64,000 bases of DNA from Porticoccus sp. (lineage in GTDB: Bacteria > Pseudomonadota > Gammaproteobacteria > Pseudomonadales > Porticoccaceae): NCBI GenBank assembly GCA_002733125.1, contig NVUM01000005.1, forward strand, positions 36,076 to 100,075, read 5' to 3'. The notes beneath the pieces are model-generated. The model was not told the DNA's origin and searched no databases. It saw only the letters and a program-made list of their open reading frames with translations. Shown piece after piece: positions 34,741-64,000 of this stretch. Made by a program: the position numbers and the translations under genes. The number at the start of each line of letters is the position of its first letter. The first letter of the stretch is position 1.

Positions 34741-34918
34741 TAATGGTGTTCCTAAGAGGGAATCCGGTGCAAATCCGGAACTGACGCGCAGCGGTATAGG
34801 GGAACGAAAGCGACAGGCCCGGCAATGGCCGGGCAGGCACTGATCATTGATTGGGAAGCCGTCGCCGTAGGTTTGTGCGAACAGGAGCGCATTGCCCCCA
34901 AGTCCGAAGACCTAGCAG
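34741..34918 (+). ncRNA. Cobalamin (B12) riboswitch upstream of nrdAB
   Basis: Core 'GGGAATCCGGTGCAAATCCGGAACTGACGCGCAGCGGTATAGGGG' and terminal B12-box-like 'AAGTCCGAAGACCTAGCAG'; ~125 nt before the nrdA start. Confidence 0.9.
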
Positions 34919-35043
34919 CTTCTTTGACTTCAGTCCTCGCGATCCGGGACGGTGAAGCGCCGCAGGCCGTTTGTGCCCGTCTGCCAACTTCCGTCCCCCG
35001 CGAGAAACCCTAACTTCGCGCAACAAGTAAAGGACGGAATCCC

Positions 35044-37845: not shown

Positions 37846-39008
37846 TGAAAAGCCCTCAGACCCCAACACTTTCCCAATGGGACGATCCGCTGCGACAGGC
37901 GGTGCCAGCAGCCAATCGCTCACTGTTCATGCAACATGGGTACGCCCCCGAACTACACCAGGCTCAGGTACCCGACGTCTGCCACGCCCTGGAACTGGTG
38001 CAAAACCTGCCGCCGGTGAACCCAAACGACAAGCGCATCGTGAATGGCAACACCGATATCAACCAACTGGCGCCGTTCAAGTACCCCTGGGCCTGGGAAT
38101 TTTTCTTGAACGGCAACAAAAACCACTGGACGCCTCTAGATATCAACATGGCCCAGGATGTCCACGATTACCACCACAAGCTCACCACTGAAGAAAAGCA
38201 CGTTTATGAAAACGTACTGGCCTACCTCACCACTTCCGACATCCTCGCCATGCGCAATATCGGCTTAGCAGTGATGGAGAAAATGAGTGCACCGGAACTG
38301 CAGATCTACCAGGCGCGCCAGGTGTACGAAGAGGCATTGCACACATGGACCTACCAGCACTGCATCGAGACCATCGGACTCGACCAGAGCGAGATCTATA
38401 ACCGCTACCGGGTGGTACCCGCAATCTACGGCAAGATCCGCATGGCCAACCAGCGATTGGAACGGGTAATGCGCGCTGACTTCGACCTACGTAACAGGGA
38501 CAATCTGGAAGAGTTTGCCATGTCTTATCTGTTCTTTGCCGCCGTGTTCGAGGGGTGTTGGTTCTACAACGGGTTCAATCCCATCTTCGCGCTGCAGCGA
38601 CGGGGATTGATGAAGGGCACCGGTGAACAATTGCAGTACATCCTACGGGACGAGGCCCTTCACAGCGCCTTCGGCATGAAAGTAGTGGAACAGCTGCTTA
38701 TAGAAGAAAAACTCGTCCTAGACCCAAAAAGAGTCCAGGAAATGTGGGACGAATCAGAAGCCGCTGAACATGCCTACGCAAAATATATTCTGGCTGATCC
38801 TATCCTCGGCTACAGCGCCGACGACCACATTGGCCAATTCCACTTTGTCGCCAATCGTCGGTCTCGACAGATGAAAATGCCCGAACCTTTTCCCGGTGCC
38901 AAAGAGCGGCTGGACTGGCTCAGCGAGCAGGCCAGCTTGCGCAAGGAGAAGAACTTCTTCGAAACACGGGTTACGGAATACCAAACAGGCGTTTCGTTGA
39001 GTTGGTAG
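37845..39008 (+). CDS. nrdB: Class Ia ribonucleoside-diphosphate reductase beta subunit
   Basis: 'YPWAWEFFLNGNKNHWTPLDINMAQDVHDY', 'YEEALHTWTYQHCIETIG', 'ILRDEALHSAFGM'. True start 37845 overlaps the nrdA stop (TAATG). Confidence 0.96.
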   Translation: MKSPQTPTLSQWDDPLRQAVPAANRSLFMQHGYAPELHQAQVPDVCHALELVQNLPPVNPNDKRIVNGNTDINQLAPFKYPWAWEFFLNGNKNHWTPLDINMAQDVHDYHHKLTTEEKHVYENVLAYLTTSDILAMRNIGLAVMEKMSAPELQIYQARQVYEEALHTWTYQHCIETIGLDQSEIYNRYRVVPAIYGKIRMANQRLERVMRADFDLRNRDNLEEFAMSYLFFAAVFEGCWFYNGFNPIFALQRRGLMKGTGEQLQYILRDEALHSAFGMKVVEQLLIEEKLVLDPKRVQEMWDESEAAEHAYAKYILADPILGYSADDHIGQFHFVANRRSRQMKMPEPFPGAKERLDWLSEQASLRKEKNFFETRVTEYQTGVSLSW

Positions 39009-40843: not shown

Positions 40844-42793
40844 TTAACCAAAACTAAGACCGCGCCCCCGACCAAGTTCCCAGCTGACAAAATTTCCCCG
40901 CACCACAGCCGACAGCGACCGCCCCAGTCGTTGTTCAATCACCGGTTTCCAGGGGACCAGGCTGAAACCCATTCCATCGTCCAGCATGGCAAAGCGGCCG
41001 CTGGTGAGCATCAGACTGCGGCGGTAGATGCCGCTGATACGCTCGCCTTCGGCGGGCTGCCGATACTCCAGGGCGGTTTCCGCCGCGATACCTTCCGCTA
41101 CTTTCGCCAGTTCCTTGTTGCGCAGTGTTGACAGCAGATTGCGAGCAAGGATAACGCGACGGCCTCGTTTCTCCGCCAGGCCTTCTTCCACCAGGAAATC
41201 AGCTCGCTGTTGCAGGGCCTTGCCAACCTCGGTACCGAAGCCCTGGCCACCACCGACATTCCTACCATCAATCAGTTGCTGGTCCAACCAGGTGGCACCT
41301 ATCGCCCGGGCTTGGCGCTCGATGGACAGGTGGGATTTCAGGGTCACGGCAATACCACCACTACGCTGTCGATCATATTGGCGACCCTGCTCTGGCAGAT
41401 CGGCTGGGACCCGCCAGACGTCGTCGCCCAGGCGCTCCACAATGCCAGCGCGGCGCAAGGCTTCCAGCCGGCGGCGATGGGAGGTCACAACCTCTTCAGT
41501 ATCGCCACTATTCAGGGTTCCACTTCGCTGAATCCGGTGAGTGTCCAGACGGTACAAACCCTCCTCGGCCAGTACGGCAATATCTCGATCCACGGCGCGG
41601 ACTTTGCCGACACCTGTTGCTTCAACCACGGCACCCACGGGGAACTCTCCCAGTTCCACCTTGGCAGGCAACGCTACGTAATGCGCCTTGCCGTCGACGC
41701 CATCGAGCACAAGATAGCCACGGTCATTCAATTCGTCGGCGAGACCCTTGGCAGCGACACGACCGATGATAGGACTGGCGTCTTCAGTCGGTTCGAACAC
41801 ATCCAGTTCACATTGCCTTCCGCTCATGGCTCGCTGCATGGTACGGATGATATCGCCCCGCTCTCCCATGGATCGTAAAGTCCGTTCGGCCTCCGGATGG
41901 ATCATCCAGCCGCCGGGCTGCCGTTCGCTCGCCAGGCCCATACGCTGCAGACGCTGCAGCCGACCTATCAATAAAAGGCGCTGACGTTTCAGGTGTGACT
42001 CAGCAAGCTTTTGCATATCGAGCAGGCCGTCCTCTGCCTCGCGCTTCAGGGTGCGATCTAGACCGGTCCAGCGATCCTGCTCAACCTCGTGTTGCATACT
42101 GCGCTGGATCTCCAGTTCGGTACGCGGCCCCAGCCATTCGGTGGCCAGTTCGCAGGCGCGTCGCCGCATGCCGTCGGCAATATAGTCACGCGAGATAATC
42201 AGGTCTTTGCCCTGATCATCCCGGCCCCTCAAAACGATATGGGCATGGGGGTTGTCGGTGTTCCAGTGATCCACCGCCACCCAGTCCAGTTGTGTGCCCA
42301 GATCCTGCTCCATGCGTTGCATCAGGTCGCGGGTATAGCGGTGCAGGTCTTCCAGCTCCGCCGCATCCTCGGGTGAAACAATAAAGCGGAACTGATGGCG
42401 ATCCTTACGGCCGCGCTGCTCGAAGTCGGAGAGGTCGGCATCGTCACTCAGGGCACTGTAGGCTCTGCCCTTTTGCCCATCACGGCCCACGCCTTCTCGC
42501 TCGATATAGCGCAGATGAGTGATGGTGGAACGCTTCCCCGCTTTGGAGAGCTTCACCAGCCGGGTCTTGATGGTGACGCGCCGGGCATTGGGCGCCAGGG
42601 ACTGCCCGGCAAAGCGGGCGGCAACATGGCCACGGCCCAGTCGCGCCCCTGGACGGCCACCTCCCTTGCGAGCCCGGGACCCCGCCTTGCTGGCTTGCTT
42701 GATGACCGAGTTGATAAAGGTTTGGCCGCGATTTTTCGGTGCGTTGGGCCTGACCTTGAACTGCTCGCCCTCGTCATTGCGGCGCCGGCTCAT
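40844..42793 (-). CDS. VirD2-like relaxase with DUF3363-type C-terminus
   Basis: 'RYIEREGVGRDGQKGRAYS', 'FRFIVSPEDAAELEDLHRYTRDLMQRMEQDLGTQLDWVAVDHWNTDNPHAHIVLRG' (relaxase His triad). Confidence 0.93.
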   Translation of the reverse strand: MSRRRNDEGEQFKVRPNAPKNRGQTFINSVIKQASKAGSRARKGGGRPGARLGRGHVAARFAGQSLAPNARRVTIKTRLVKLSKAGKRSTITHLRYIEREGVGRDGQKGRAYSALSDDADLSDFEQRGRKDRHQFRFIVSPEDAAELEDLHRYTRDLMQRMEQDLGTQLDWVAVDHWNTDNPHAHIVLRGRDDQGKDLIISRDYIADGMRRRACELATEWLGPRTELEIQRSMQHEVEQDRWTGLDRTLKREAEDGLLDMQKLAESHLKRQRLLLIGRLQRLQRMGLASERQPGGWMIHPEAERTLRSMGERGDIIRTMQRAMSGRQCELDVFEPTEDASPIIGRVAAKGLADELNDRGYLVLDGVDGKAHYVALPAKVELGEFPVGAVVEATGVGKVRAVDRDIAVLAEEGLYRLDTHRIQRSGTLNSGDTEEVVTSHRRRLEALRRAGIVERLGDDVWRVPADLPEQGRQYDRQRSGGIAVTLKSHLSIERQARAIGATWLDQQLIDGRNVGGGQGFGTEVGKALQQRADFLVEEGLAEKRGRRVILARNLLSTLRNKELAKVAEGIAAETALEYRQPAEGERISGIYRRSLMLTSGRFAMLDDGMGFSLVPWKPVIEQRLGRSLSAVVRGNFVSWELGRGRGLSFG

Positions 42794-43199
42794 GGGGAAC
42801 CTCCAGCGAAGTCCAGCAAAAGGGGGCGCAAGTGACACGCGGCTATACCAGTGCGGACGTGACATTGGCACTTTTCACGGCACGCTCCCCGCCCCAGGCG
42901 CGTGCCGCATCCACCCCATGTGCAGACTGCCTTTTCGCGCACCAAAGTGCCGCGACCTTTTATCTTGCCCTGCATCTTTCCCCGCCCTGAAAGCTCGGGG
43001 ATGCGATACCCCGGCGACGCTGCAATGTGTGACAGCCGGTCGCTGGCGAGCGTCGGCCCCACCAACGGTGGAGGACGCTCGGGGCAAGATATCTGCACAG
43101 GGGACTGCCACATTACGTTCGGTGCAATTACACTGTTGCGACAGCGGCACAGACGCGAAACGTGTATGGAAATTGTTCCAACTTGCGCTTTCACGCTGG

Positions 43200-43754
43200 T
43201 CACTCCAGGTCGAATCGGTGGGCCACACCGATCACGTTTGCCCTATCGATCGGACCAAAATAGCGGCTGTCGAAGGAGGCCGGATTGGTGGTGCTGAGCA
43301 GGAATAGCTCGCCCTCATCAAGCTGACGGCAGTGCGTCCAGGAAGGCAGTGGACGTGCCTGTGCATCAATGAGCAACACGTGGGCTACCGGTACACTATC
43401 AATGTACAAAGTCCCGCCCACTATGCAGACATGCTGTGGTGCCATTGCACCGACCCGCTTCAGCAGCGGGACATCCAAAGGCAGGTAGCCACGTTGATCC
43501 GCCAATACCGCAACAGCATCAGGCAAATCAACCAACACAATGCTGTCCACCGGTATCGCATTTACGTCCGTACCAAGCAGTGTTATGTGATACCAGCCGA
43601 TCGGCACACTGTCAGAGGCGTTGTAGACCACCCGTGCTTTTGACGGCGTGAATGCCGCCCAGACCAGTACTGCCAAACCGGCTGCCATTAGCACCAGAAC
43701 AGTGACACACGCCAAGCGTCGTGAACGGGAGTTCACAGCAGATATCAGTGTCAA
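43200..43754 (-). CDS. traF: TraF-like S26 signal peptidase (conjugation)
   Basis: 'VVYNASDSVPIGWYHI', 'DSVPVAHVLLIDAQARPLPSWTHCRQLDEGELFLLSTTNPASFDSRYFGPIDRANVIG'. Confidence 0.9.
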   Translation of the reverse strand: MTLISAVNSRSRRLACVTVLVLMAAGLAVLVWAAFTPSKARVVYNASDSVPIGWYHITLLGTDVNAIPVDSIVLVDLPDAVAVLADQRGYLPLDVPLLKRVGAMAPQHVCIVGGTLYIDSVPVAHVLLIDAQARPLPSWTHCRQLDEGELFLLSTTNPASFDSRYFGPIDRANVIGVAHRFDLE

Positions 43755-44284
43755 TGCAGCGCCCTCCCCGCCAACCAGGCTGCATGACGGTCGGCGTCGT
43801 AATCGGGTAGCGGCTCTCGTGCGGCGAGGCGATTACTCAACAAGCGCCAATACGTCGGAGAGACATCAGCAGGCTCAATGCACTGCGCCTCAATGGCATC
43901 GATCTGTAACAAGACGGCGCGCACATTTCGCTCACCCTCGGCGTTCAGCAGGATGTGTACGCCGGGACGCACACCGCGCACCCGTTGCATACCCTCTTCC
44001 GGTCGACCGCTTTGCAGTACCATCAGTTGCCAACGTGTGGTGCCGTAATCGTTCGACTCCCAACGAATCCGACAAAACAGTTGCGCCGGGGGAAACACCG
44101 CGCAGCGTCGCCAGCGGTCGACCTGGTGAACGCGCAATGGGCAACCGAAGCGCAGGTACAGGTTGATACGTTGCTCAACATAGAGCAGCGAGACGCGGGT
44201 CAAGGGTGCGTCGTCATTCGGCGCAGTGAACGCCCGAGGCGGCATCAACGGCAAGCTGTTCGTGGGTGACTCGTCCAGCATCAT
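43751..44284 (-). CDS. DUF2840 domain protein
   Basis: ICE-conserved protein next to traF; 'LTRVSLLYVEQRINLYLRFGCPLRVHQVDRWRRCAVFPPAQLFCRIRWESNDYGTT'. Confidence 0.75.
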   Translation of the reverse strand: MMLDESPTNSLPLMPPRAFTAPNDDAPLTRVSLLYVEQRINLYLRFGCPLRVHQVDRWRRCAVFPPAQLFCRIRWESNDYGTTRWQLMVLQSGRPEEGMQRVRGVRPGVHILLNAEGERNVRAVLLQIDAIEAQCIEPADVSPTYWRLLSNRLAAREPLPDYDADRHAAWLAGRALH

Positions 44285-48917: not shown

Positions 48918-49226
48918 TCACTCGCCCTTGTTTCGGGACCACAGCAGGTTGTGCTTGCCGTCATCGCCCTCGATGAGACGGGCGTAGACAGTCGCGGGGA
49001 ATGATGGATCGTCGAGGGTCACCGACAGGTAGGGACGCTCCGCCTGGCTGACTTTCTGCCAGGCCGCGCCGACTTCCAGGCCGTTGGCTGCCAGAAGGCG
49101 GTAGTCGGGGGCATTCTCGCTGCCCTTGTCGTTGTGGACGAACCTGAGCTTGACGTTGAGCGCCAGGGTGCGCAGGGTGCCGGTGAAGCCGTCTTTCTCT
49201 GCGGTGAAGGTGGCGATGTTGGCCAT
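48918..49226 (-). CDS. DUF736 domain protein
   Basis: 'MANIATFTAEKDGFTGTLRTLALNVKLRF...GAAWQKVSQAERPYLSVTLDDPSFPATVYARL'. Start trimmed from 49493. Confidence 0.88.
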   Translation of the reverse strand: MANIATFTAEKDGFTGTLRTLALNVKLRFVHNDKGSENAPDYRLLAANGLEVGAAWQKVSQAERPYLSVTLDDPSFPATVYARLIEGDDGKHNLLWSRNKGE

Positions 49227-50331
49227 GATGTGTACTCCTTTCGGGTTGCCAAGGTCGCGCCCATCGCGTCCTTGTTGTGATCCGGTCGGCGTGGGTCGGG
49301 CGGGCCGCACCGCGCAGCGGCCGCAACAGCGTGGAGGACCTGAAGGCGCAAAGAATTTGCTGCGCGAGGAAGGCGCACAGCGCCGGGGAACATTCTTTGC
49401 GCCGAAGGGTTGCGGCCATTGAGCCCGAGGCGCAGCCGCACCTTCGCCAGGATTCACAACGAACCAAGGACGCATTGGGCCGACCTGACCCAAAAGGGGT
49501 AATGGCCTACCCGGTATTCCGCGGCACAGCGATACCGGTATCCGTTGTCACCCGTTCACGTCAGTCCATGGCCCAGGACATGCGAGGAACGTCCTCCATC
49601 TTTCGCAATCGATGTTGCAGCTCGGACCGGACAGTCACGCCAGGTAAGCCCCACCGCTTAGGCGAGCCATACTCGTTCACGCTTCACCCCCGCCACCAGC
49701 ATCAAGGGCTACTAGACAATACACAACCCGTCACGGCAAAGTGGAGCCGGTCACGGCATGTCGTTTTCGCTAGGGTGGGCACGCAAGACTGAATCGATTT
49801 GATACCACCGGATTCCCAGATTCGGAGCCCACTTGCCTTGTCACCCCATAAACCAACCCAGATATCTGCTCAAATGTCTGGTGGCTGTGTTGCCACCGTC
49901 TTTCCCGAGTTCATCGCCCGCGACGGCGGAGAGCGCGCGGACGGGTGCCGTCCAGGAAACCAGCGCCGGGTAACTTCAGCTGACAGGCACAGGCGAGGAC
50001 ACGCCCGGCGCGCCTTGACGGCACACGACCGTGGGCTACAGTCGCGGACAAGGTGATGAAATAAGGGGGACGGATGGACAGATTATGGTCTTTACTGTGT
50101 ACCGTTCACACACAGCGCTGCAGGCGCGAAGGCCGATCAGGTGCAACCTGTTCGGCGGCTTTTCAGGGGCGCCAAACGGAGAGCGGCGGGGATCGGCGAC
50201 ACGCCGTTCCCCTGGAGTGCAAGCACAACGCGCAGTCCCACACGGCCGACGACATCGACACCGGGCGCAGCAGAAAAAAAAGCGCCGCCCCCGGTCAACG
50301 GGAACGACGCTTTCGAGGATGGATCGAACGA

Positions 50332-50957: not shown

Positions 50958-51464
50958 CTACAACAGCCCTCGCTCGGCGAATGACGATGTCTGTTCACCG
51001 CCGACGACGATATGGTCCAGGGTGCGTACATCAACCAGTGCCAGCGCCTCTTTCAGCCGCTGGGTTATCGTCCTGTCCGCCTGGCTCGGCTCGGGATTTC
51101 CGCTCGGATGGTTATGAGAGAAGATCACCGCCGCAGCATTGACCTGAAGTGCCATCTTAACGACTTCCCGCGGGTAGACTGCCGCGCCGTCGATGGTGCC
51201 GCGAAACAGCTCGGCATGCTCGATCAGGCGGTGCTGCGAATCCAGGAACAGGCACGCGAACACCTCGTGGTCAAACCCTGCCAGCTTGGCACATAGGAAC
51301 TCCTTGACGATGGCCGGTGACGTGAACGAGGCGCCACGCTGGATCTTCTGGTCGATCACCTGGCGCGCAGCCGTCAGAATCTGGTCGGCAGTAGCCGGAA
51401 GGTAGCGCCCCTGGTCGTCACGAACCAGCAGCGAGGAATCGGAAATGAGAGAGAATTTAGTCAT
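50958..51464 (-). CDS. radC: RadC-family JAB-domain protein
   Basis: 'HRLIEHAELFRGTIDGAAVYPREVVKMALQVNAAAVIFSHNHPSGNPEPSQADRTITQRLKEALALVDVRTLDHIVVG'. Confidence 0.95.
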   Translation of the reverse strand: MTKFSLISDSSLLVRDDQGRYLPATADQILTAARQVIDQKIQRGASFTSPAIVKEFLCAKLAGFDHEVFACLFLDSQHRLIEHAELFRGTIDGAAVYPREVVKMALQVNAAAVIFSHNHPSGNPEPSQADRTITQRLKEALALVDVRTLDHIVVGGEQTSSFAERGLL

Positions 51465-52152: not shown

Positions 52153-54897
52153 TTGCGTTTAAGTTGGAATGAAATCAGAGCCCGAGCTGCGACGTTTGCC
52201 AAAGACTGGGCGAGTGCCAGTTACGAAAAGGGCGAAACCCAAAGCTTTTATAACGACTTCTTTGAAGTGTTTGGCCTTCAGCGTCGCCGTGTGGCGATCT
52301 ATGAGCGACAAGTCAAAAAGCTAAATAATAAACAGGGATTTATAGACCTGTTCTGGCCGGGCGTCTTGATAGTCGAGCAGAAAAGTGCCGGGCGAGACCT
52401 GTCCAAAGCCAGGGAGCAGGCAGAAGAATATTGTCTGGGGCTAAAATCCAATGAACATCCAAGATATATCCTGTTGAGCGATTTTCAGACTTTCGAGCTG
52501 TATGACCTAGAAGAAGGCATTGATTGCAAATTTGATCTAGAGGACTTGCCGCAGAATGTAGAAAAGCTCGGATTTATCATTGGTGTCCAGAAGCGATCTT
52601 TCAAAGATCAAGACCCGGTAAATATACAAGCATCGGAACTTATGGGGCGTCTTCACGATGCCCTTAAGGATTCTGGCTACGATGGGCACGACTTAGAGCA
52701 GTTTCTGGTTCGCATACTTTTTTGTTTGTTTGCCGACGATACAGGTATCTTTGAACCGCGTGGCATATTTGAAACCCTTATCAAAGATAGAACGGCAGAA
52801 GATGGCTCTGACTTGGGGCAGTGGCTGTCATCTTTATTCGATGTTTTGAATACCGAAGAAAGTAAGCGATACAAGACGCTAGATGAAGACTTGGCAGCAT
52901 TTCCCTATGTTAATGGAGAGTTGTTCTCTGCGAGACTGCCAATACCTGCATTTAATACAGATATGCGTTTAGCACTAATCGAGGCTTGTGAATTTTCCTG
53001 GGATGCCATCTCTCCAGCCATATTTGGGGCACTATTTCAGTCTGTTATGGACAGTAAAGAGCGCCGTGCAAAGGGCGCTCACTACACAACCGAAAAGAAT
53101 ATTATGAAGGTCATCGGAGCACTATTCCTTGATGAACTTCGGGATGAATTCGAAACTATCAAGGGGCGAAAAACACAAAGGAAGGCATTACTTGAAGCGT
53201 TTCACAATAAATTATCCAAACTTACTTTTTTTGACCCGGCGTGTGGCTGCGGAAACTTCTTGGTCATCGCATATAGAGAGCTACGCCAGCTTGAACTGGA
53301 AATTCTTATAGAAACCAGAACAGGCCAGCAGCTTAGCCTGGACGCTACAGCGCTTTCGCTTATCGATGTTGACCAATTCTACGGGATTGAAATCGGAGAA
53401 TTTCCGGCCCGAATTGCCGAAGTAGCAATGTGGATGATGGATCACATCATGAACAATCGACTTAGCCTACAGTTTGGCCAGTCGTACGTTCGTATCCCTC
53501 TGAAGAAATCACCGCATATCAAACACGCTGATGCTCTTGAATGTGATTGGCAGGAGCTTCTGCCTGCCAAAGACTGCTCATATATATTTGGCAATCCGCC
53601 ATTTCTGGGTTCCAAATACCAGACTGATTTTCAGCGTGCACAAGTTCGCCGTATTGCCGATTTGGGTGGTAGTGGGGGAACGTTGGATTATGTCACAGCG
53701 TGGTTCCTCAAAGCAGGAGAATACATAAACGCTGCTCCGATTAAGATTGGATTTGTTGCGACAAACTCGATAACTCAAGGCGAGCAAGTGGCACAGTTTT
53801 GGCCGCTGTTGTTTGAGCGTTATGGGTTAGAGATCATTTTTGCGCATAGAACATTTGAGTGGGGATCAGACGCAAGAGGACAAGCCCATGTTCATGTTGT
53901 AATTTTGGGCCTTTGTCACAGTAGTGTTGAGCCGCAGGACAAACGGCTATTCTCATATCCAAGTATCAAAGGAGACCCCGAAGAAAGTCGCCATAAGGCG
54001 CTGACTGCCTATTTGTTTGATGCTGAAAAACTATCGAACAGGCATTTGGTTGTGAAGGAAGTTTCTAAACCTATAAACGGGCTCGAAAAGCTCGTTGTGG
54101 GCTCTAAACCGATTGATGGTAGTCATTATATTTTTGAGGGGAGTGAAAAAGATGCGTTTTTGGCTAAAGAACCCAAGGCGGCGCAGTATTTTCACCCCTA
54201 TATAGGATCAAGAGAATATTTAAATGGTGGAGATCGCTGGATATTGTATCTGGGGGAGGCTTCGCCAGCTGATTTGAGAGGTATGCCCGAGGTACGTAAG
54301 GTCGTCGAGGCAGTCAAAGCCGAACGCTTGAAAAGCCCGAGTAAGCCTACACAAAAATTGGCAGAGACGCCGACACGCTTTCATATCACCATCGTTCCGG
54401 ATAGCCCATTCTTGGTATTGCCTGAAGTTAGCTCAGAGAGACGTGAATACCTTCCTATTGGTTGGTTAGAGCCTCCCGTTGTGCCAAGCAATCTAGTAAA
54501 GGTGCTGTTGAGTGTTGACAAGACTATTTTTGCAATACTGACGTCTGCCATGCATATGGCTTGGCTAAGATATATCGGTGGTCGCCTAAAAAGCGACTAT
54601 AGATATTCAATCGGGCTGGTTTATAACAACTTTCCTATGCCGGAAATTTCTTCATCCCAGAAACAACGATTAGAGAAATTAGCACAAGCGGTGATTGATG
54701 CAAGGAATGTTCATCACGGCTTGTCGCTTGCCGATTTGTATGATCCTAACTATATGCCTGCCGACTTAAGGAAAGCGCATAAGGCGATTGATACGGCAGT
54801 TGACCGACTTTACCGGATAACGTCTTTTGGATCAGAACGGGAAAGAGTGGAGCATCTTTTCGGCTTGTACGAAAAAATGATCGACCCTGACGCATAA
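52153..54897 (+). CDS. MmeI-like type IIL restriction-modification enzyme / N6-adenine DNA methyltransferase (914 aa)
   Basis: N-terminal PD-(D/E)XK-like 'FIDLFWPGVLIVEQKSAG', motif I 'FFDPACGCGNFLVIAYREL', motif IV 'YIFGNPPFLGSKYQ'. Confidence 0.85.
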   Translation: MRLSWNEIRARAATFAKDWASASYEKGETQSFYNDFFEVFGLQRRRVAIYERQVKKLNNKQGFIDLFWPGVLIVEQKSAGRDLSKAREQAEEYCLGLKSNEHPRYILLSDFQTFELYDLEEGIDCKFDLEDLPQNVEKLGFIIGVQKRSFKDQDPVNIQASELMGRLHDALKDSGYDGHDLEQFLVRILFCLFADDTGIFEPRGIFETLIKDRTAEDGSDLGQWLSSLFDVLNTEESKRYKTLDEDLAAFPYVNGELFSARLPIPAFNTDMRLALIEACEFSWDAISPAIFGALFQSVMDSKERRAKGAHYTTEKNIMKVIGALFLDELRDEFETIKGRKTQRKALLEAFHNKLSKLTFFDPACGCGNFLVIAYRELRQLELEILIETRTGQQLSLDATALSLIDVDQFYGIEIGEFPARIAEVAMWMMDHIMNNRLSLQFGQSYVRIPLKKSPHIKHADALECDWQELLPAKDCSYIFGNPPFLGSKYQTDFQRAQVRRIADLGGSGGTLDYVTAWFLKAGEYINAAPIKIGFVATNSITQGEQVAQFWPLLFERYGLEIIFAHRTFEWGSDARGQAHVHVVILGLCHSSVEPQDKRLFSYPSIKGDPEESRHKALTAYLFDAEKLSNRHLVVKEVSKPINGLEKLVVGSKPIDGSHYIFEGSEKDAFLAKEPKAAQYFHPYIGSREYLNGGDRWILYLGEASPADLRGMPEVRKVVEAVKAERLKSPSKPTQKLAETPTRFHITIVPDSPFLVLPEVSSERREYLPIGWLEPPVVPSNLVKVLLSVDKTIFAILTSAMHMAWLRYIGGRLKSDYRYSIGLVYNNFPMPEISSSQKQRLEKLAQAVIDARNVHHGLSLADLYDPNYMPADLRKAHKAIDTAVDRLYRITSFGSERERVEHLFGLYEKMIDPDA

Positions 54898-54980
54898 AGT
54901 AACGATAAAGGTTATAGAAGAGTAGCGTTACCAAACTTTAACGGATTGGTATATGGATAAAACAAAGGTTCAGAAGGATC

Positions 54981-56012
54981 ATGACTGAAACGCCACTAGA
55001 TATTGTAAGTAAAATTGCCCAGGACTGTATTCAGCACGTACCCATCATTGTGCTGGGTAGTGGCGCTTCTATCCCGCATCGTTATAAAGGTATGGGGGAG
55101 CTGGCAGAATATCTGCGTGAAAATCTCGTAACTGAAAGTGAAGCTGAATCCCAAGCATGGACAGCTATAAGCGCCGATCTAAGCGATGGAATGGGGCTGG
55201 AGGAAGCTCTCCAAAAAACGGCAACTCCAAGTACCCTTGTAGACAAAATCGTGAATCACACTTGGAAAGGGATTGCTTCCGATGATCTAGCCGTATTGCA
55301 ACGCGCAGCAATCGGAGAAGAAAATTTCCCTCTTGCGGATATGATCCGGGGACTTTTTAGAAGCACAACTCGTACCCTAAACATTGTTACGCCCAACTAT
55401 GACCGTATTGCTGAATATGCCTCGGATGCTGCGGACTTTATTCATGCCAATGGTTTTGTCCCAGGATTGATTAGAAGAAGAGAAGGCGGTGATACAGTTT
55501 TAATACGTCGAGGGAGTTACCCTGCGAGAACTGTCCGCATCTTGAAGGTACACGGCTCTTTAGACTGGTTTGAAGATCAACATGGGAATGTCTTGTCTCT
55601 TCCTCTAACTAGCGAACTACCAGAAGGTTTTCGTCCCCTTATAGTTACCCCTGGCATAAGTAAATATGAACGAACTCACGATGAACCGTTTCGTTCTGCC
55701 TTACAAGGCGCTGATACAGTCCTTGGTTCGGCACCTGCATTCTTATGTATTGGTTATGGATTTCGGGATACGCATATTCAGCCCCGCTTGGTGGAACGCT
55801 GCCGACAAAAAAATGTACCTATTATCATTCTTGCAAAATATCTAACACCCGAAGCTAAGAATTTTCTGACGAATAGCGCAGGAACTCGATATTTGGCGAT
55901 GGAGGATTGCAAGGAAGGGACACTCGCATTTTCGAATGAGTTCAAGGATGGAACGATCATTCCTGATGTCAAATTGTGGTCATTCGATAATTTTAATTCA
56001 TTGGTATTATGA
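54981..56012 (+). CDS. SIR2-family protein
   Basis: 'IIVLGSGASIPHRYKGM', 'NIVTPNYDRIAEYA', 'ILKVHGSLDWF', 'FLCIGYGFRDTHIQPRL'. Confidence 0.88.
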   Translation: MTETPLDIVSKIAQDCIQHVPIIVLGSGASIPHRYKGMGELAEYLRENLVTESEAESQAWTAISADLSDGMGLEEALQKTATPSTLVDKIVNHTWKGIASDDLAVLQRAAIGEENFPLADMIRGLFRSTTRTLNIVTPNYDRIAEYASDAADFIHANGFVPGLIRRREGGDTVLIRRGSYPARTVRILKVHGSLDWFEDQHGNVLSLPLTSELPEGFRPLIVTPGISKYERTHDEPFRSALQGADTVLGSAPAFLCIGYGFRDTHIQPRLVERCRQKNVPIIILAKYLTPEAKNFLTNSAGTRYLAMEDCKEGTLAFSNEFKDGTIIPDVKLWSFDNFNSLVL

Positions 56013-56020
56013 GGTTATGA

Positions 56021-57769
56021 ATGACTATTTTTAATTATGAAGATAACGAAGCCTTAGGGCGAATTATCGCGGTAGATAGCGCAGTTGTTGTTGTCAGAGT
56101 CGATGAATTAGAAAGACTCAAACGTGTCCAAGTAAACAGGTTGGTTGCTCTTCAAAGCAGTAAAGCTGGACAACATCTAGTTGGGGTCGTATCGAGGATT
56201 ACACGTAAAGCTCCTGACGGCGGTATAGAGCTGCCATCTAATGAAGCCGACACAGTCGAGTTGCCAGAGAATAATTTGGTTCGAGTATCTTTAATAGGAA
56301 CTCTTATTGATCGCGTCGGCACCGATCAAAATGTATTCCGCCGCACCTTAGAAACAGTCCCAGAAATTGATGCCAACTGTTTTTCCCTAGAAGGAGAACG
56401 CCTTACTAACTTTATGCAGGTTATATCAAACGTGGTTGGTGATGGCCCGCAACTTGAACTCGGCAAATATACTCTTGATGAAGATGCTACAGCCTATTTA
56501 AATGGTAATAGATTGTTTCAACGTCACGCTATCGTGGTGGGAAGTACAGGATCAGGTAAGTCTTGGACTACCGCAAGACTACTCGATCAAGTTGCAGCAT
56601 TGAGACAAGCAAATGCAATATTGTTTGACGTTCACGGCGAGTACAAAACCCTAGAGGGCGATGAGTTTAGACATTTTCGAGTGGCTGGCCCAGGTGATCT
56701 AGATAGTGGCACTGGCTTAGATGATGGTGTTTTGTATTTGCCATTCTGGCTTCTTGGATATGAAGCAATGGTTTCGCTGTTTGTTGATAGGTCAGATCAA
56801 AACGCGCCCAATCAGGCGATGGTAATGTCCCGCTGCATTACCGACGCAAAAAGAGCTTATCTCACAAGTGGTGGACATACTGACATTCTAGATAACTTCA
56901 CAGTTGATAGCCCGGTTCCTTTTGAACTGAATGCTGTCGTAGCTGAACTTGAACGGCTCGATAATGAGCGGGTTCCCGGAGCAAGAGCAGGTTCAGACAA
57001 AGCGGGGGACTTTAATGGGAAGTTAAGCCGCCTTATCGCACGTTTCGCATCTAAGCGTTTGGATCGTCGATTGGGTTTTCTTTTTCAACCTCACGCAGAA
57101 TGTTTGCAGATGGATTGGCTGGCAAGAATGACGCACAAACTAATTGGCGGAAGAGGATCGCAGGAGGATTCTTCAGGGGGGATAAAAATTATTGATTTTT
57201 CCGAAGTTCCCTCTGACATACTTCCTCTTATGGTCAGCCTATTAGCGCGTTTGATTTTTACCGTCATGCAATGGACTGATCCTGATCGAAGACACCCAAT
57301 TGCACTGTTTTGCGATGAGGCACACCTCTACATCCCGGAACGCAGCAGCAGAGAGTCAGTCGATGACATTTCCGTAGGCATCTTTGAACGAATTGCCAAA
57401 GAAGGACGAAAATATGGTGTAGGCTTGGTTGTCATCAGTCAACGGCCTGCCGAAGTCAATCGGACTGTGTTGAGTCAATGCAATAATGTTGTTGCGATGC
57501 GCTTAACCAACGGTGAAGACCAGTCCGTGATTAAGCGTCTTCTGCCAGATAGTCTTGGTGGTTTTGGCGACCTGCTTCCAGTCCTTGATGTTGGTGAAGC
57601 TCTAGTGGTTGGTGATGCTAGTCTTCTACCAACTCGTGTGCGCGTAGCTGAACCTCGATGCAAACCAAATAGCGCTACCGTTCAATTTTGGGATAGATGG
57701 GGTGATGATGAGCCACTTTCGGATACCGAGAAAGCAGTGCTTTCTTGGCGACGGCAAAGTGCTCAATAG
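56021..57769 (+). CDS. HerA-like (DUF87) ATPase
   Basis: 'RHAIVVGSTGSGKSWTTARLLDQVAALRQANAILFDVHGEYK', 'ALFCDEAHLYIPE', 'VGLVVISQRPAEVNRTVLSQCNNVVAMRLTN'. Confidence 0.92.
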   Translation: MTIFNYEDNEALGRIIAVDSAVVVVRVDELERLKRVQVNRLVALQSSKAGQHLVGVVSRITRKAPDGGIELPSNEADTVELPENNLVRVSLIGTLIDRVGTDQNVFRRTLETVPEIDANCFSLEGERLTNFMQVISNVVGDGPQLELGKYTLDEDATAYLNGNRLFQRHAIVVGSTGSGKSWTTARLLDQVAALRQANAILFDVHGEYKTLEGDEFRHFRVAGPGDLDSGTGLDDGVLYLPFWLLGYEAMVSLFVDRSDQNAPNQAMVMSRCITDAKRAYLTSGGHTDILDNFTVDSPVPFELNAVVAELERLDNERVPGARAGSDKAGDFNGKLSRLIARFASKRLDRRLGFLFQPHAECLQMDWLARMTHKLIGGRGSQEDSSGGIKIIDFSEVPSDILPLMVSLLARLIFTVMQWTDPDRRHPIALFCDEAHLYIPERSSRESVDDISVGIFERIAKEGRKYGVGLVVISQRPAEVNRTVLSQCNNVVAMRLTNGEDQSVIKRLLPDSLGGFGDLLPVLDVGEALVVGDASLLPTRVRVAEPRCKPNSATVQFWDRWGDDEPLSDTEKAVLSWRRQSAQ

Positions 57770-57866
57770 TTTGATTTCTTATAGGCCTACTTGGATTCGC
57801 ATGGAGGCCTTGGAGTGTTTTTTAGTGGAATGAGGCGCTAGACCGGATTTAGATAGTTATGTTTTG

Positions 57867-60800
57867 ATGGACGATATTAATAAGCAAATACCTCCTCCAA
57901 AGTCATGGATAGATTTTGAAAATCTATGCCACAGTCTATTTTGTGCTGTTTGGAATGATCCTTATGCGGAAAAAAACGGTCGAAGTGGGCAGAAGCAGTC
58001 CGGCGTAGATATATTCGGATCGCCTAATCAGAACTACGGTCATTATCATGGCGTACAATGTAAAGGCAAGAACGCAAATTATGGTGCTTATGCTGAAGTT
58101 TCCGAGATAGAAGATGAAATTACAAAGGCCGATAAGTTTTCTCCTAGGCTGCACCATTGGATTTATGCTACGACCGCACCCGTCGATGCCAAGTTACAAA
58201 AAGCAGCCCGCGGAATTTCTGAACAGAGAAAAACAAAAGGACTTTTCACGGTATCAGTTTTTGGTTGGGAGCAAATAGAGGCGCTTCTTTGTCAACATAA
58301 AGATGTATTGAAGTCGTTTTACCCGGAGCTTGGTTTCGATTTGGAGGCATATCTAGATCAAATTGTCACAAAGCTCTCTGCTGAACTAGGCTCAGAAATA
58401 AAATCTCTTCTTGTGTCCCAACAAGAACTGCCTTCAGAAATGACAAGCATATCGTGCAATGATTGGATTCCTGTCCGATATGGTCAGGGTCGCGGCCTTG
58501 TACCCGCACTGACGGGGCGTTCTATGGGAGCAAATGACGCTCTGTCGTGTCCCGAATTGCCAGAAGTAAATAGAGTGATAAATGATCTCTCGAAAGCCTT
58601 TGCAACACGGATCGTTGGCGAGCCCGGCTCTGGGAAGTCTCTATGTGCTTTCCAGGCGATGAAGCACTTCACTGATCGTGGTTGGCAGGTTTTACGGCTT
58701 TGTGATCCGCAGAAAGACAAGCTTGAGATACCAGGTCTAGCTGAAAATAAGGACACGCTTCTCTTTATAGATGATGCCCATTTAGCCTCCCCGTCGCGGC
58801 TTTCTATCCTTGAGGAACAAGCTGGAAAATCTCTGTTGGTTTTATCCACGCACAATACTGAAGAAGCAAAAATTGCCTCTCGCAACGCGATTACCATAGA
58901 TAGTCAAAGGGCTGTAAACATAATCGCTAATGGACTACTTATTGATCGAGCACGAACATTGAAGGAAGTTGCGAGTGTTGACAAAGACATTGGTGACAAG
59001 ATGACGCAGATCGACTTGGAGGCTCGAATTTCAGAAGCGCAAAGGATTTCTGTCTATCCATGGCAGTTTTGTTTTAATCTGGGTGGCGGCTGGCGAAGAG
59101 CGACCGATATTGCTGATTCTGCTCGTCAAGCAAAAGCCGATTTGATTCTGGCAGTATTAGCGGCTCATCAGATCGTCTCCAGGGATCGACCTATTGACTT
59201 GGATGAAGCGTCAGAGCTATTTAGCATAGGATTTGAGGGCGTTTCAGTACAGAAGGCGATAGTTTGGCTGGTTCAGCAGCGACTTCTTTTGTCGATGAAT
59301 GATTTGAGGCCACCTCACCAAAAATTTTCTTCTGTCGTTCTGAACAAAATATTAGGGGCGCAAAATGACGAAGGAAGACAGCTAATCGGCCAAGCTTTTG
59401 AGCATTTTGTACGCAGTAACTCTTATCCGCTTGCCGGAAAAAGAATGTTACTTCACGAGCTTCGTTTTTCTGGTAACTCTGGGCGCTGGTGCCATCTTGT
59501 TCCACCTGACTGCTTACAACCTGCAATTCAGGAGGCTTGGCAAGCGGTCACCCCTGATGAAAGGCTTCATGCTTGCTATTTCCTGGATGAATTAGACGCG
59601 TTTTTCGATGGCTGGCCTGAGAAGTTGTTTGGCGGGAACGAAGAGACTATCGCTAGCTGGATATCTGAGCCCGATACTCCTTCAGGCTGGGGGTTAGGCC
59701 GTCTCATTAATGGTATAGGTAATCAACACAATGAATATCTAGCTACTCTGATCTCTAAAGCTGATCCATACTCCTTGGCAAAGGAAATAAATGCAGTAAA
59801 CCTCTCCTCCGCAGCCCATCTGGGAGAGTTGCTGCGTTCATTAGGTTATGTAAGGCAATCGCCTTGGTATCAACAGTTAAGGCAAAGCTTAGATCCAATA
59901 GCTCTGGAAAGATTGGCTGCAAATTGGGAGGATATAGACGAGATTTGGGCTTTCGCAAAATTTTGTGATGCTGTGGCTGGCGTTGATGATGATCTCGGCC
60001 TTGCAATGGCTGAGAAATTCGTGCCTTGCGCTCAACAGGCATTTAGCAAAGACTCGGTGGGGGCATTTCGCGATCTCCATGACTTTATGATGTCTGTGCT
60101 CAGAATTTATGACCCGCTTGGAGTCTTTGTGGGTAGACTGGCACCCAGGGGGCGGCATAAGCAGATTGCCCGAAAAATGCTTAAAGACCTCAATGCTGGG
60201 AAAGTCGCTGAATTTCTATCTGACACCAAATTGAGAGAAATGCAAAGCGCGGCGGGGTTGCTAACGACAATATATAAAGTTCTTCCTCAAAAGCACCTTG
60301 AGATTGTTCAGAATATCGATTGGCAAAAGGTCTCTAATACTATCGGAGATCACTGGAGCAATTTGCCACACGAAGCCGAGGTTTTTCTTGGCGTATGTTA
60401 TGGTGGAGGTTCAGCCCAAAGTTTATTGGACGACTTTATCAGCCAGAATCTTGATAAAATTACCTCATTCCCCCCTAGATTGGCAATTCTTAGTCCCAAT
60501 GCCGCTATTCGTCATGTAGAGTCAGGCAAGACAATCCGCCTAGCTTCTTTCGATCACGTCGAATGGAAATTTGGATATTTTGTTATCGCTTTGTTTTCAG
60601 AGGAAAAGCCAGAACTTCTTAGTGCTGTACTTGAACAGGCTGAAAAAACAACCGCTGAAACTTTCTCACGAGAAAATTCCAGTTGGTACAGAGAAGCTTA
60701 TGAGTATACCAACCTTCTTCAGAAAGAGGCTCCGGAAAGCCTAGACCGAATCCTCGATAAGGTAAGCGCAGATCGTGCCCAGAACGGTTGGATTGACTCT

Positions 60801-60938
60801 TTACAAAAAGGAAAAGGTGCACAGAAGACTGTTGCCCTTTTAGTTGAGTACAGCCTTAAACGAGATGATGAGCTTGGATTGATGGCCCGCCAATTAAGAC
60901 AGCGATTTCCTAAAGCTTCTCTTCCCCCAAACAAATGA
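57867..60938 (+). CDS. Restriction-endonuclease-like domain fused to P-loop NTPase (~1023 aa)
   Basis: N-terminal 'NGRSGQKQSGVDIFGSPNQNYGHYHGVQCKGKN' (D...QxK Mrr-like), P-loop 'IVGEPGSGKSLCAFQAM', Walker B 'TLLFIDDAH'. Confidence 0.75.
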   Translation: MDDINKQIPPPKSWIDFENLCHSLFCAVWNDPYAEKNGRSGQKQSGVDIFGSPNQNYGHYHGVQCKGKNANYGAYAEVSEIEDEITKADKFSPRLHHWIYATTAPVDAKLQKAARGISEQRKTKGLFTVSVFGWEQIEALLCQHKDVLKSFYPELGFDLEAYLDQIVTKLSAELGSEIKSLLVSQQELPSEMTSISCNDWIPVRYGQGRGLVPALTGRSMGANDALSCPELPEVNRVINDLSKAFATRIVGEPGSGKSLCAFQAMKHFTDRGWQVLRLCDPQKDKLEIPGLAENKDTLLFIDDAHLASPSRLSILEEQAGKSLLVLSTHNTEEAKIASRNAITIDSQRAVNIIANGLLIDRARTLKEVASVDKDIGDKMTQIDLEARISEAQRISVYPWQFCFNLGGGWRRATDIADSARQAKADLILAVLAAHQIVSRDRPIDLDEASELFSIGFEGVSVQKAIVWLVQQRLLLSMNDLRPPHQKFSSVVLNKILGAQNDEGRQLIGQAFEHFVRSNSYPLAGKRMLLHELRFSGNSGRWCHLVPPDCLQPAIQEAWQAVTPDERLHACYFLDELDAFFDGWPEKLFGGNEETIASWISEPDTPSGWGLGRLINGIGNQHNEYLATLISKADPYSLAKEINAVNLSSAAHLGELLRSLGYVRQSPWYQQLRQSLDPIALERLAANWEDIDEIWAFAKFCDAVAGVDDDLGLAMAEKFVPCAQQAFSKDSVGAFRDLHDFMMSVLRIYDPLGVFVGRLAPRGRHKQIARKMLKDLNAGKVAEFLSDTKLREMQSAAGLLTTIYKVLPQKHLEIVQNIDWQKVSNTIGDHWSNLPHEAEVFLGVCYGGGSAQSLLDDFISQNLDKITSFPPRLAILSPNAAIRHVESGKTIRLASFDHVEWKFGYFVIALFSEEKPELLSAVLEQAEKTTAETFSRENSSWYREAYEYTNLLQKEAPESLDRILDKVSADRAQNGWIDSLQKGKGAQKTVALLVEYSLKRDDELGLMARQLRQRFPKASLPPNK

Positions 60939-61260
60939 TAATCACGGATACTGCTGATCTATATTTGGATTTATTAACGGACTTGATTCATGATAGCGGC
61001 CATCATCGCATCCTCAAAATTGTCTGGATTTGTCGGTCATCCATCGGTTTTAAATGTAATCATAATCCGTAGCATCCCTAATCATGGGTATTTCTCTGAA
61101 TACTGGGGACAGTTTACTTAATTTAATGTCCGCTCCTGGCCGAGAGCAGATATTGATATTGCCATTTAGAAAAAAAACTTCTACTGAGGTACGCGCAGGA
61201 CGTATACGTCCTGATCGACATACATCGGCTATAGAATTTAATCTTTTGCAAGAAAGCATA

Positions 61261-61599
61261 TGGTGCCCGAGGCCGGAATCGAACCGGCACGACCGTTTCC
61301 AGTCGAGGGATTTTCTTACCACTTCGACTTTCGCCGCCAGCATCCTTAGTTAGAACACTGTTCGTGGTCTGGAGCACGCCTTCACCATAACGCCACGTGT
61401 AACCGCTTTGCCTTAGGTGCCCGCCGTCTGCTCTCTACACCTTCCCCAAGAAACTGCCTTGGGGCTTGGCTCGGCGTTGGCTCGGATTCTAATCGAATCC
61501 AGGGCTTTCGCCGAGTTTGACGGGCTTCACCTTCAGGGTTTCCCCTGGAGGGCTCAAATTGTTTAAGTCCCTTGTGTCTACCAATTTCACCACTCGGGC
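61261..61599 (-). tRNA. leuZ: tRNA-Leu(UAA) interrupted by a group I intron (exons 61565-61599 and 61261-61314)
   Basis: Exons GCCCGAGTGGTGAAATTGGTAGACACAAGGGACTT / AAAATCCCTCGACTGGAAACGGTCGTGCCGGTTCGATTCCGGCCTCGGGCACCA give a perfect 7-bp acceptor stem, T-arm, anticodon loop CTTAAAA and encoded CCA. Position beside tRNA-Cys, pgsA and uvrC matches leuZ. Confidence 0.9.
61315..61564 (-). ncRNA. Group I self-splicing intron (~250 nt) in tRNA-Leu(UAA)
   Basis: 5' splice after anticodon U34 with intron GAG able to pair with exon CUU (U-G wobble at the splice site); 'AATCCGAGCC..GAGCCAAGCC' (P/Q-like), 'GTGTAGAGAGCAGACGGCGGGCACC' (R) and 'AAGGCGTGCTCCAGACCACGAAC' (S) with P7-type GAGCA/TGCTC pairing; terminal G. 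Confidence 0.88.
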
Positions 61600-61775
61600 G
61601 TGGTCTTACATTTGCCTAGTTTTACCAGGTTTGTTACGTCTTCTTTGGTTCTAGCGGCCCCTATTTGACACCTAGCGAGCCATTTTCAATTCAACCGTAA
61701 AGCTTAAATCCCGCTGAAAGCCTTATGCTGCCTGGCTTTCAGCCCTACTGCCACCTCCTAAAAATAGTTGACATT

Positions 61776-61819
61776 AGAGATTTTAAGTCCCTTGCGTCTA
61801 CCAATTTCGCCATCCGGGC
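61776..61819 (-). pseudogene. Orphan tRNA-Leu(UAA) 5' fragment, intronless through the anticodon stem
   Basis: GCCCGGATGGCGAAATTGGTAGACGCAAGGGACTTAAAATCTCT, with no matching 3' half following. Confidence 0.8.
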
Positions 61820-61934
61820 ATTCTTGAGGATGGGCTTTATTACTGATGTTGTCTGAAGGTTGCCAGCACGCTGTGCTGGTCCTTGCGGTCGCTCTCGGCT
61901 CCTGCCTTTCGCGACACTTGAGCATCCTGCTCAT

Positions 61935-61959
61935 CGTCTACCAATTTCGCCATTCGGGG
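61935..61959 (-). pseudogene. Orphan tRNA-Leu 5' fragment, acceptor/D-arm only
   Basis: CCCCGAATGGCGAAATTGGTAGACG, diverging after the D-arm. Confidence 0.7.
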
Positions 61960-62070
61960 ATGGGCTTGTTTCGGTTTTTACTGCTTTCGCTTACGCAATT
62001 GACGATTGATGGTCTGGAGGTTTATCGGGCTGGACGATCAAACGGCGGTGTTGCGTTTAACGGTTGAAAA

Positions 62071-62144
62071 TGGAGGCGCGGGTCGGAATCGAACCGGCGT
62101 TAACGGAGTTGCAGTCCGCTGCATGACCACTCTGCCACCGCGCC
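62071..62144 (-). tRNA. tRNA-Cys(GCA)
   Basis: GGCGCGGTGGCAGAGTGGTCATGCAGCGGACTGCAACTCCGTTAACGCCGGTTCGATTCCGACCCGCGCCTCCA; anticodon loop CTGCAAC. Confidence 0.95.
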
Positions 62145-62281: not shown

Positions 62282-62839
62282 TCAGGTGACTTTGGACAAC
62301 TCCGGCCAGGCTGCTTTCAGGTAGATCAGCATGGACCACAGAGTCAACAGTGCTGCCACGTACAGCAAGGCGATGCCCATCAGATCCAGCACCGGGTATA
62401 GCACCGGATCAATCGCCAGCAATATGGCAATGGCGATCATCTGCAGGGTCGTTTTCACTTTCCCCATATAGGACACGGCAACGCTGGTGCGGTTGCCCAG
62501 TTCCGCCATCCACTCACGCAGTGCAGAAATCACGATTTCACGCCCGATGATGACCAGTGTCGGCAATGCGAACAGCACATTGGCATGGGATTCCAGCAGC
62601 ATGATCAGGGCCGAGGCAACAATCAGTTTGTCCGCTACAGGGTCGAGAAACGCACCGAATGGGGTGAACTGGTCGAGTTTTCTGGCCAGATAGCCATCGA
62701 GCCAGTCGGTACCGGCGGCGATACCAAAAATGGCGGCGCTGGCTAGGTGGCGACCTTCCCAGGGCAGGTAGTACACCCCGATAAAAATAGGGATAAGTGC
62801 GATACGTAACAGGGTGAGGATATTAGGGAGATTCCACAT
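62282..62839 (-). CDS. pgsA: CDP-diacylglycerol--glycerol-3-phosphate 3-phosphatidyltransferase
   Basis: 'MWNLPNILTLLRIALIPIFIGVYYLPW', CDP-alcohol phosphotransferase motif 'GTDWLDGYLARKLDQFTPFGAFLDPVADKL'. Confidence 0.96.
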   Translation of the reverse strand: MWNLPNILTLLRIALIPIFIGVYYLPWEGRHLASAAIFGIAAGTDWLDGYLARKLDQFTPFGAFLDPVADKLIVASALIMLLESHANVLFALPTLVIIGREIVISALREWMAELGNRTSVAVSYMGKVKTTLQMIAIAILLAIDPVLYPVLDLMGIALLYVAALLTLWSMLIYLKAAWPELSKVT

Positions 62840-62881: not shown

Positions 62882-64000
62882 TTACTCATTGTGAAGGGTG
62901 CTGTAAATAGTTTCGGCCACTTTCCTGCTGATACCAGGCACGCGCATCAATTCGGCAACACTGGCCCGCACAACCTCCTGAGAGCCCCCGAAAAACCGGA
63001 GTAATTCCTTGCGCCGTTTTGGGCCAACCCCGTCAATCCCCTCCAGCGTCGAGGTGCGGCGCTTGCGATCGCGGCGCTGGCGGTGACCGGTAATCGCAAA
63101 GCGGTGGGCCTCATCGCGGATTTGCTGGATAAGCAGCAGGGCCGAGGACTGGGCTTCCAGTTCCCGTTCGAGGCCATCCTGCGACAGCAACAGGGTTTCA
63201 AAGCCCGCCTTGCGAGTGGGCCCCTTGGCGACGCCCACCACCTGAACACCAATCACACCCAGTTCAGCCAGCACCGCGACGGCCCTGCGCATCTGCCCTT
63301 TGCCGCCGTCGATCAGCAGAATATCGGGCAGTTTGCCCTCCTCTTTCTGAATGCGGGTATAGCGGCGCACCAACGCCTGTTCCGTTGCGGCATAGTCGTC
63401 CCCGGCAGCGACACCCTTGATGTTCATTCGCCGATAATCCGATTTCAGCGCCCCGCCACTATCAAATACCACACAGGAAGCAACTGTATCTTCCCCACTG
63501 CTGTGGCTGATATCGAAACATTCGATCCGCTCGGGCGGCGCCGCCAGTTGTAGCAGTTGCTGCAAAGCCTCCAGTCGCTGCTGGGTGGTCTTGCGTGAGG
63601 CAATGCGACCGTTCAGGTTCTGGCTGGCGGTGCGCTCGGCCAGTTCGACCCATTGCGCCCGGGTGCTGCGCCCCCGGTGCTTGAGAAGCACCCGGTGGCC
63701 GGCCACCTCGGAAATCGCTGAGGCCAGCAGCGCACTGTCGGGCAGCGCATGATTGATGACTATCTCACGCGGAAAATCACCCCGGCCGCTGTCGCGCAGA
63801 TAGAACTGCGGCAGAAAATCTGTCAGCACTTCGGCGGCATCCGCTGCCAACGGCACCTTCGGGTAATAGCTTCGGCTACCGAGGATTCGCCCCTGACGGA
63901 TATAGAGCACGTGCACACAGCACTGGTCTCCCACCAGCATGGCGGCCACCACGTCGATATGGCTGCTGCCGGACTCCACCACCTGTTCGGCCTGAATGGT
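62882..64000 (-). CDS. uvrC: Excinuclease ABC subunit C, C-terminal part (gene continues off the right edge)
   Basis: 'IECFDISHSSGEDTVASCVVFDSGG', 'DILLIDGGKGQ', C-terminal HhH 'LEGIDGVGPKRRKELLRFFGG'. Frame is open through 64000. Confidence 0.95.
   Translation of the reverse strand, partial: TIQAEQVVESGSSHIDVVAAMLVGDQCCVHVLYIRQGRILGSRSYYPKVPLAADAAEVLTDFLPQFYLRDSGRGDFPREIVINHALPDSALLASAISEVAGHRVLLKHRGRSTRAQWVELAERTASQNLNGRIASRKTTQQRLEALQQLLQLAAPPERIECFDISHSSGEDTVASCVVFDSGGALKSDYRRMNIKGVAAGDDYAATEQALVRRYTRIQKEEGKLPDILLIDGGKGQMRRAVAVLAELGVIGVQVVGVAKGPTRKAGFETLLLSQDGLERELEAQSSALLLIQQIRDEAHRFAITGHRQRRDRKRRTSTLEGIDGVGPKRRKELLRFFGGSQEVVRASVAELMRVPGISRKVAETIYSTLHNE

Follow-up and report, generated by a model that had tools for sequence, protein, structure and literature searches.

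The locus at positions 61261-61599 (minus strand) of the window, by which the whole stretch of 64,000 nucleotides (64 kb) analyzed here is meant, raises the question why a tRNA-Leu(UAA) gene interrupted by an intron is found where a mobile element meets its host chromosome. The gene consists of a 35-nt 5′ exon (61565-61599), which ends in CUU (U34 of the anticodon), an intron of 250 nt (61315-61564), and a 54-nt 3′ exon (61261-61314), in which the CCA end is encoded; all three lie on the minus strand. The exons were delimited by alignment and by ARAGORN with introns allowed, and when joined they give an 89-nt tRNA-Leu(UAA) that folds in ARAGORN, i.e., a complete tRNA, as the first-pass annotation had claimed. 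It had also predicted that an ordinary tRNA scan would miss the gene, and neither plain ARAGORN nor an Rfam scan at the gathering threshold reported anything at 61261-61599. When introns were allowed, ARAGORN found the locus but called it Phe(aaa), a wrong name that arises because the splice site can be slid. In the proposed check with an Rfam covariance model, RF00028 matched the locus over its full model (1-253) with 45.8 bits (E 4e-10), which is ∼4 bits under the gathering score of 50. In a genome-wide scan, this intron (44.9 bits, E 2.8e-10) was the sole RF00028 match in the genome of the window (G000), a metagenome-assembled genome (MAG) in 33 contigs that is 86.8% complete.

That the 250 nt between the exons constitute a group I intron, as had been read from the letters before, was borne out by their structure. 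The 5′ splice site is marked by a U.G pair in P1 (U35.G45), the terminal intron base is a G (G285), P2 is closed by a GAAA loop, and P8 contains a CCUAAG...UAUGG-like motif, which we take to be a tetraloop receptor; helices P3, P4, P6, P7, P8, and P9b are all present. Covariation was assessed on the window's intron-bearing tRNA plus 29 related genes (30 in total), using a P1-P9 structure with P7 as a pseudoknot. Paired cells amounted to 93.2%, versus 78.2% in shuffles and not more than 47% when the partners were slid. Two-sided changes were found in 253 cells versus 87 in shuffles (none of 500 shuffles reached 253), and 32 of the 55 pairs had changed on both sides. Within the core, two-sided changes concerned three of five pairs in P7 and four of six pairs in P3. 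With the covariance model match, the compensatory changes in P3 and P7, and the U.G pair and terminal G all present, the sequence can be assigned with near certainty to the group I introns (tRNA type, IC3-like). In several tRNA-Leu(CAA) introns (L219, L255, L257, L254, L199, L198, L204, and L067), a C-G pair replaces the U.G at the 5′ splice site.

On the host side of the locus, the gene order is kept, with uvrC (62882-63982), pgsA (62282-62839), tRNA-Cys (62071-62144, minus strand), and then tRNA-Leu(UAA); uvrC-pgsA-cysT-leuZ is the order of the leuZ locus in E. coli. Between tRNA-Cys and leuZ, one copy of a 140-bp unit that opens with the first ∼26 nt of tRNA-Leu is present (61820-61961); the same-genus genome G083 contains at least four copies of such a tRNA-Leu-fragment unit in tandem (L036). 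Downstream of tRNA-Cys and in the same direction, the 5′ half of the native, intronless host tRNA-Leu(UAA) was identified (61779-61819, minus strand; 41 nt). This half represents attL and ends in the att core CTTAAAATC (61779-61787, minus strand), a 9-bp sequence of the anticodon loop that is common to both tRNA halves in the eight genomes described below. In G071, a complete genome of the same genus, the locus carries an intact intronless tRNA-Leu(UAA). The native 5′ half matches this gene up to the core, and identity between G000 and G071 ends in the anticodon loop. The native 3′ half was located at G000:C4:2946-3002, the two element ends being on different contigs; it begins with CTTAAAATC and lies at the other end of the element, beside a tyrosine integrase. 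Rejoining it with the 5′ half resulted in a complete tRNA-Leu(UAA).

The end of the element within the window is position 61779, with the host 5′ half just outside. From the att core, the left end of the element extends over 179 bp (61600-61778, minus strand) to the intron-bearing gene; this segment contains a TGTCAA motif near the core and is conserved among the elements, and no promoter was recognized in it. The whole region 61260-61820 shares 94-95% identity with G298 and G317. The spare gene differs in sequence from the native host gene. The first-pass annotation had placed a split tRNA at the flank of a mobile element; the element is there, but the intron-bearing tRNA is carried inside its end, where, as a foreign gene, it stands in for the host gene that was cut. 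That leuZ itself simply contains a chromosomal group I intron, with the neighboring half genes being unrelated duplications or repeats, is hardly tenable on this evidence. The synteny with E. coli and the nearby 140-bp repeat with its tRNA-Leu fragment would fit such a reading, but the empty site in G071 and the rejoined halves contradict it: the split gene is the native one, in G077 a 62-kb element separates it from its other half, and the intron-bearing tRNA is unlike the native gene and common to another family.

Positions 1-61778 of the window are part of this element. Its backbone genes, all encoded on the minus strand and assigned by Pfam, comprise those for a RadC-like protein (50958-51464; PF04002), which is shared with G077, G317, G474, and Pseudomonas jinjuensis, a DUF736 protein (48918-49493; PF05284), a DUF2840 protein (43751-44284; PF11000), a TraF-like S26 peptidase (43200-43754; PF10502), an RlxS-like relaxase with DUF3363 and Relaxase domains (40844-42871; PF11843 and PF03432), a TraG/VirD4-like coupling protein (19826-21868; PF02534), and a cluster of trb mating-pair genes, TrbB-, TrbE-, TrbL-, TrbG/CagX-, and TrbI-like (10245-19326; PF00437, PF03135, PF04610, PF03524, and PF03743). 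The Pfam matches in the window cover the backbone of the Tn4371 family, and we take rlxS, traF, DUF2840, DUF736, radC, traG, and trb to be that of a Tn4371-like integrative and conjugative element (ICE). This backbone is conserved in G077 and G317 and largely so in G474; parts of it can be detected in P. jinjuensis and a Rhodanobacter MAG. Beside attL, on the plus strand, lies defense cargo (52153-60938) with an MmeI-like type IIG restriction-modification protein, SIR2, HerA, and a STAND-like protein (Pfam and PADLOC). At 636-9422 (minus strand), a DrmA-like helicase, an unknown protein, and a DNA methyltransferase may form a DISARM-like defense module of the element, which also contains a cobalamin riboswitch (34712-34933, plus strand) upstream of ribonucleotide reductase genes (35044-39008). 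Between RadC and attL, i.e., at the RadC end where a Tn4371-type integrase would be positioned, no tyrosine integrase was seen. Instead, the integrase, a tyrosine recombinase that contains an Arm-DNA-bind_3 domain, is encoded close to attR (about 190 bp away), at the opposite end from RadC, and the core CTTAAAATC is present as a direct repeat at both ends. The target tRNA is not rebuilt by the integration: in none of the eight genomes is either half completed by element sequence; a separate full tRNA is present instead.

The same arrangement recurs in G000, G077, G070, G298, G317, G474, the type strain of P. jinjuensis, and the Rhodanobacter MAG. In each of these eight genomes, the host 5′ half is followed by ∼170-230 bp, an intron-bearing tRNA-Leu(UAA) on the same strand, the element body, the integrase, CTTAAAATC, and the host 3′ half, an 8/8 count that is partly selected, as the genomes were mostly first found via the intron. 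The integrases on the attR side are 68-100% identical to that of G000. Rejoining the halves by script led to a complete native tRNA-Leu(UAA) in all eight, and the anticodon stem was matched in every host. The whole element is contained in one contig of G077, a close relative, where the 5′ half (C8:19803-19846) and the 3′ half (C8:81887) are 62 kb apart; the corresponding distances are ∼51.5 kb in G298, 95.7 kb in G317, ∼66 kb in P. jinjuensis, and ∼14 kb in the Rhodanobacter MAG. In G070, the intron-bearing tRNA gene itself is divided between the ends of two contigs. The exons carried by the element agree at 89/89 positions among G000, G077, G298, and G317, which belong to two families, whereas the native host genes differ; the tRNA therefore travels with the element.

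The first-pass annotation had also raised the case of another intact tRNA-Leu(UAA) in the genome, with the intron-bearing copy being silent. No second intact gene was found in the 86.8% complete assembly of G000, in which the remaining Leu isoacceptors (UAG, CAA, CAG, and GAG) were all present, and a motif search for an intact intronless tRNA-Leu(UAA) in the eight genomes matched only the detached 3′ halves. The incompleteness of the source MAG leaves room for the intron-bearing tRNA to be a dead relic, with UUA being read by another tRNA missing from the assembly. This is very unlikely, given that the core of the intron is intact and strongly covarying, that the mature tRNA is perfect, and that the near-complete genomes G298 (a single contig), G317, G474, and G077 likewise lack an intronless copy in the motif search.

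Because most of the genomes had first been found via the intron, 392 genomes of the order were searched for the integrase instead. Integrases with at least 69% identity were detected in five genomes, and 5/5 carry the intron-bearing tRNA, a count not subject to the selection by intron. Integrases with ∼62% identity were present in four further genomes and, as an additional copy, in G317; none of them is located at a tRNA gene, no second intron-bearing tRNA was found with them, and they were rejected as part of the same tRNA-Leu system. In G000 (C4:2946-12337; L109) and G317 (C4:232321-240044), a second element is inserted in tandem at the att core of the detached 3′ half. It encodes a different tyrosine integrase (about 25% identical), and the spare tRNA is not its insertion site.

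Introns of this type are not rare. A genome scan yielded at least 37 loci called tRNA-Leu(UAA) that contain one, many of them in proteobacteria. In a tree of 83 introns, all element-borne UAA introns group with those of tRNA-Leu(CAA) and a few other proteobacterial introns, in a clade of 20 rows (100/98; 2 of the 20 repeat loci already in the set) that excludes the leuZ introns on the chromosomes of other gammaproteobacteria as well as introns in genes with a CAU anticodon. Within this clade, Burkholderia sp. 4M9327F10 contains a tRNA-Leu(CAA) version of the system: its integrase is 61% identical, its tRNA-Leu(CAA) is split into halves that give a complete tRNA-Leu(CAA) when rejoined, and its element carries an intron-bearing tRNA-Leu(CAA). 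In Pusillimonas caeni, a split 3′ half lies beside a 59%-identical integrase; a host 5′ half was not found near the intron-bearing tRNA. The clade members from Achromobacter, Lautropia, Solimonas, Lysobacteraceae, and G147 were not counted as element-borne because neither a host 5′ half nor an element remnant was found within 1 kb; the intron-bearing gene can therefore also be an ordinary chromosomal copy.

Phage and E. coli collections contained no full-length close homologue. Plasmid matches consisted of more distant introns (Mycetohabitans and Vallotia) and truncated remnants (Cupriavidus). The first 450 bases of the E. coli plasmid NZ_CP015086.1 (L282) contain a tRNA with a group I-like intron, the source of which is doubtful. 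The introns of L031, L032, and L033, retrieved by the RF00028 family search, were set aside as unrelated; they reside in tRNA-Leu(CAA) at another site, apparently 32/33, and are near-identical across genera and on short contigs, so contamination is possible. In Caballeronia (L262 with L303), an intact tRNA-Leu(CAA) without an intron coexists with a decayed copy that still bears one and may be what a lost element left behind. Elsewhere in the gammaproteobacteria (L217, L176, L252, L266, and L166), chromosomal tRNA-Leu(UAA) genes have introns of ∼690-706 nt in which an ORF runs antisense; it contains an HNH-like motif (LELDHINGN..NLRLLCPNCHA) and likely encodes a homing endonuclease.

We consider it probable that the ICE carries, as cargo, an intron-bearing replacement for the very tRNA-Leu(UAA) that it breaks, and that the intron shields this spare from the element's own integrase. 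The part concerning the spare tRNA is well supported, as the split native gene, the spare gene, the integrase, the intron position, and the recurrence can all be read from the genome sequences. The tyrosine integrase would recombine at the core, which lies in the anticodon loop of the one tRNA-Leu(UAA) gene that the host has. Integration cuts this gene in two, with neither half being rebuilt, and the element carries a complete tRNA-Leu(UAA) 179 bp inside attL. Because the spare follows immediately after the host tRNA operon, in the same orientation, it is probably transcribed by read-through from the operon. From the resulting precursor, the group I intron would be spliced, giving rise to the tRNA needed for UUA codons. 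In long ORFs nearby, UUA makes up 20 of 414 Leu codons; as UUA codons are used and no other tRNA-Leu(UAA) was found, we infer that the spare is essential.

The second part of the explanation concerns the intron at the level of DNA, where it most likely prevents the integrase from recombining the spare, because it interrupts the spare gene inside the 9-bp att core, between CTT and AAAATC, and because a spare without it would match the host attB over about 20 bp (G000 and G070). Shielding, deduced from this position, is the most economical reading. A spare tRNA that is functional, with its intron being a passenger without effect on recombination that the captured tRNA gene already had, is possible but rather unlikely. 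Chromosomal tRNA-Leu genes with an intron of the same clade and no element remnants nearby (Achromobacter, Lautropia, and Solimonas) speak for it, as do the widespread group I introns at this position; the match to attB that a spare lacking the intron would have speaks against it, and so does the presence of an intron in every spare tRNA found, both UAA and CAA versions and always inside the att core, even if their number is small and the elements are related. Returning to shielding, we lean, with somewhat less confidence, toward a more general principle: such elements would use a self-splicing intron as a mask of their att site and could therefore safely destroy an essential tRNA gene, making the host dependent on them, and would do so for two isoacceptors (UAA and CAA), each spare matched to the gene that is broken. 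If true, the host would depend on the element unless excision is precise. The element-borne spare further points to a way in which group I introns could move between tRNA genes of bacteria, and it accounts for proteobacterial annotations in which tRNA-Leu(UAA) seems absent.

The cyanobacterial and plastid tRNA-Leu(UAA) intron lies inside the anticodon at U34/A35, the same place as here. The two further resemble each other in the tRNA affected, the small size of the intron, and the U.G in P1; they differ in that the cyanobacterial and plastid gene is chromosomal and vertically inherited, whereas here a conjugative element carries a replacement gene. Vepritskiy et al. are said to have described, in 2002, a group I intron of 231 nt in tRNA-Leu(UAA) of the Pseudomonas isolate D0715, with no integrated element linked to it. 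This would be another gammaproteobacterial tRNA-Leu(UAA) intron, and its reported size equals that of the G474 intron. In cyanobacteria and plastids, tRNA-Leu(UAA) is a known host of group I introns (PMC4033280, discussing Paquin et al, 1997), and such introns have also been noted for large sulfur bacteria (PMC4853749). The view that they belong to cyanobacteria and plastids thus holds insofar as they are known there, but they are not confined to these groups, as the at least 37 loci, many of them proteobacterial, demonstrate. Although this intron class in tRNA-Leu(UAA) is already known, the element-borne replacement is new within the searchable literature: a limited search, which covered few subscription papers or bioRxiv preprints, turned up no account of bacterial elements that break a tRNA and carry a substitute for it with an intron.

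ICEs of the Tn4371 family are reported to use the 3′ ends of tRNA-Leu genes (reviewed in PMC9960961). The element shares with them the DUF3363 relaxase, TraF, DUF2840, DUF736, RadC, TraG, and the trb genes. Unlike them, it breaks its tRNA in the anticodon loop without rebuilding it, has its integrase at the end opposite RadC, and carries an intron-bearing tRNA. That introns may protect att sites has been proposed for archaea, an idea of Randau and Soll for which one element-associated case is on record (PMC3293823). In that case, the tRNA-Thr of Caldiarchaeum, a tRNA with an intron arrived on a mobile element, and a fragment of a tRNA stayed behind (Sugahara et al, 2012; PMC3293823). As bacterial elements carry an intron-bearing tRNA repeatedly, and matched to the gene they break, the idea of att-site protection becomes directly testable, for instance in the cultured type strain of P. 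jinjuensis. The mobile element, the intron-containing tRNA, and the leftover tRNA fragment are common to Caldiarchaeum and the system described here; the former concerns archaeal introns at one locus, whereas the latter involves group I introns in bacteria, is recurrent, and was found with both halves of the broken tRNA gene and the integrase.
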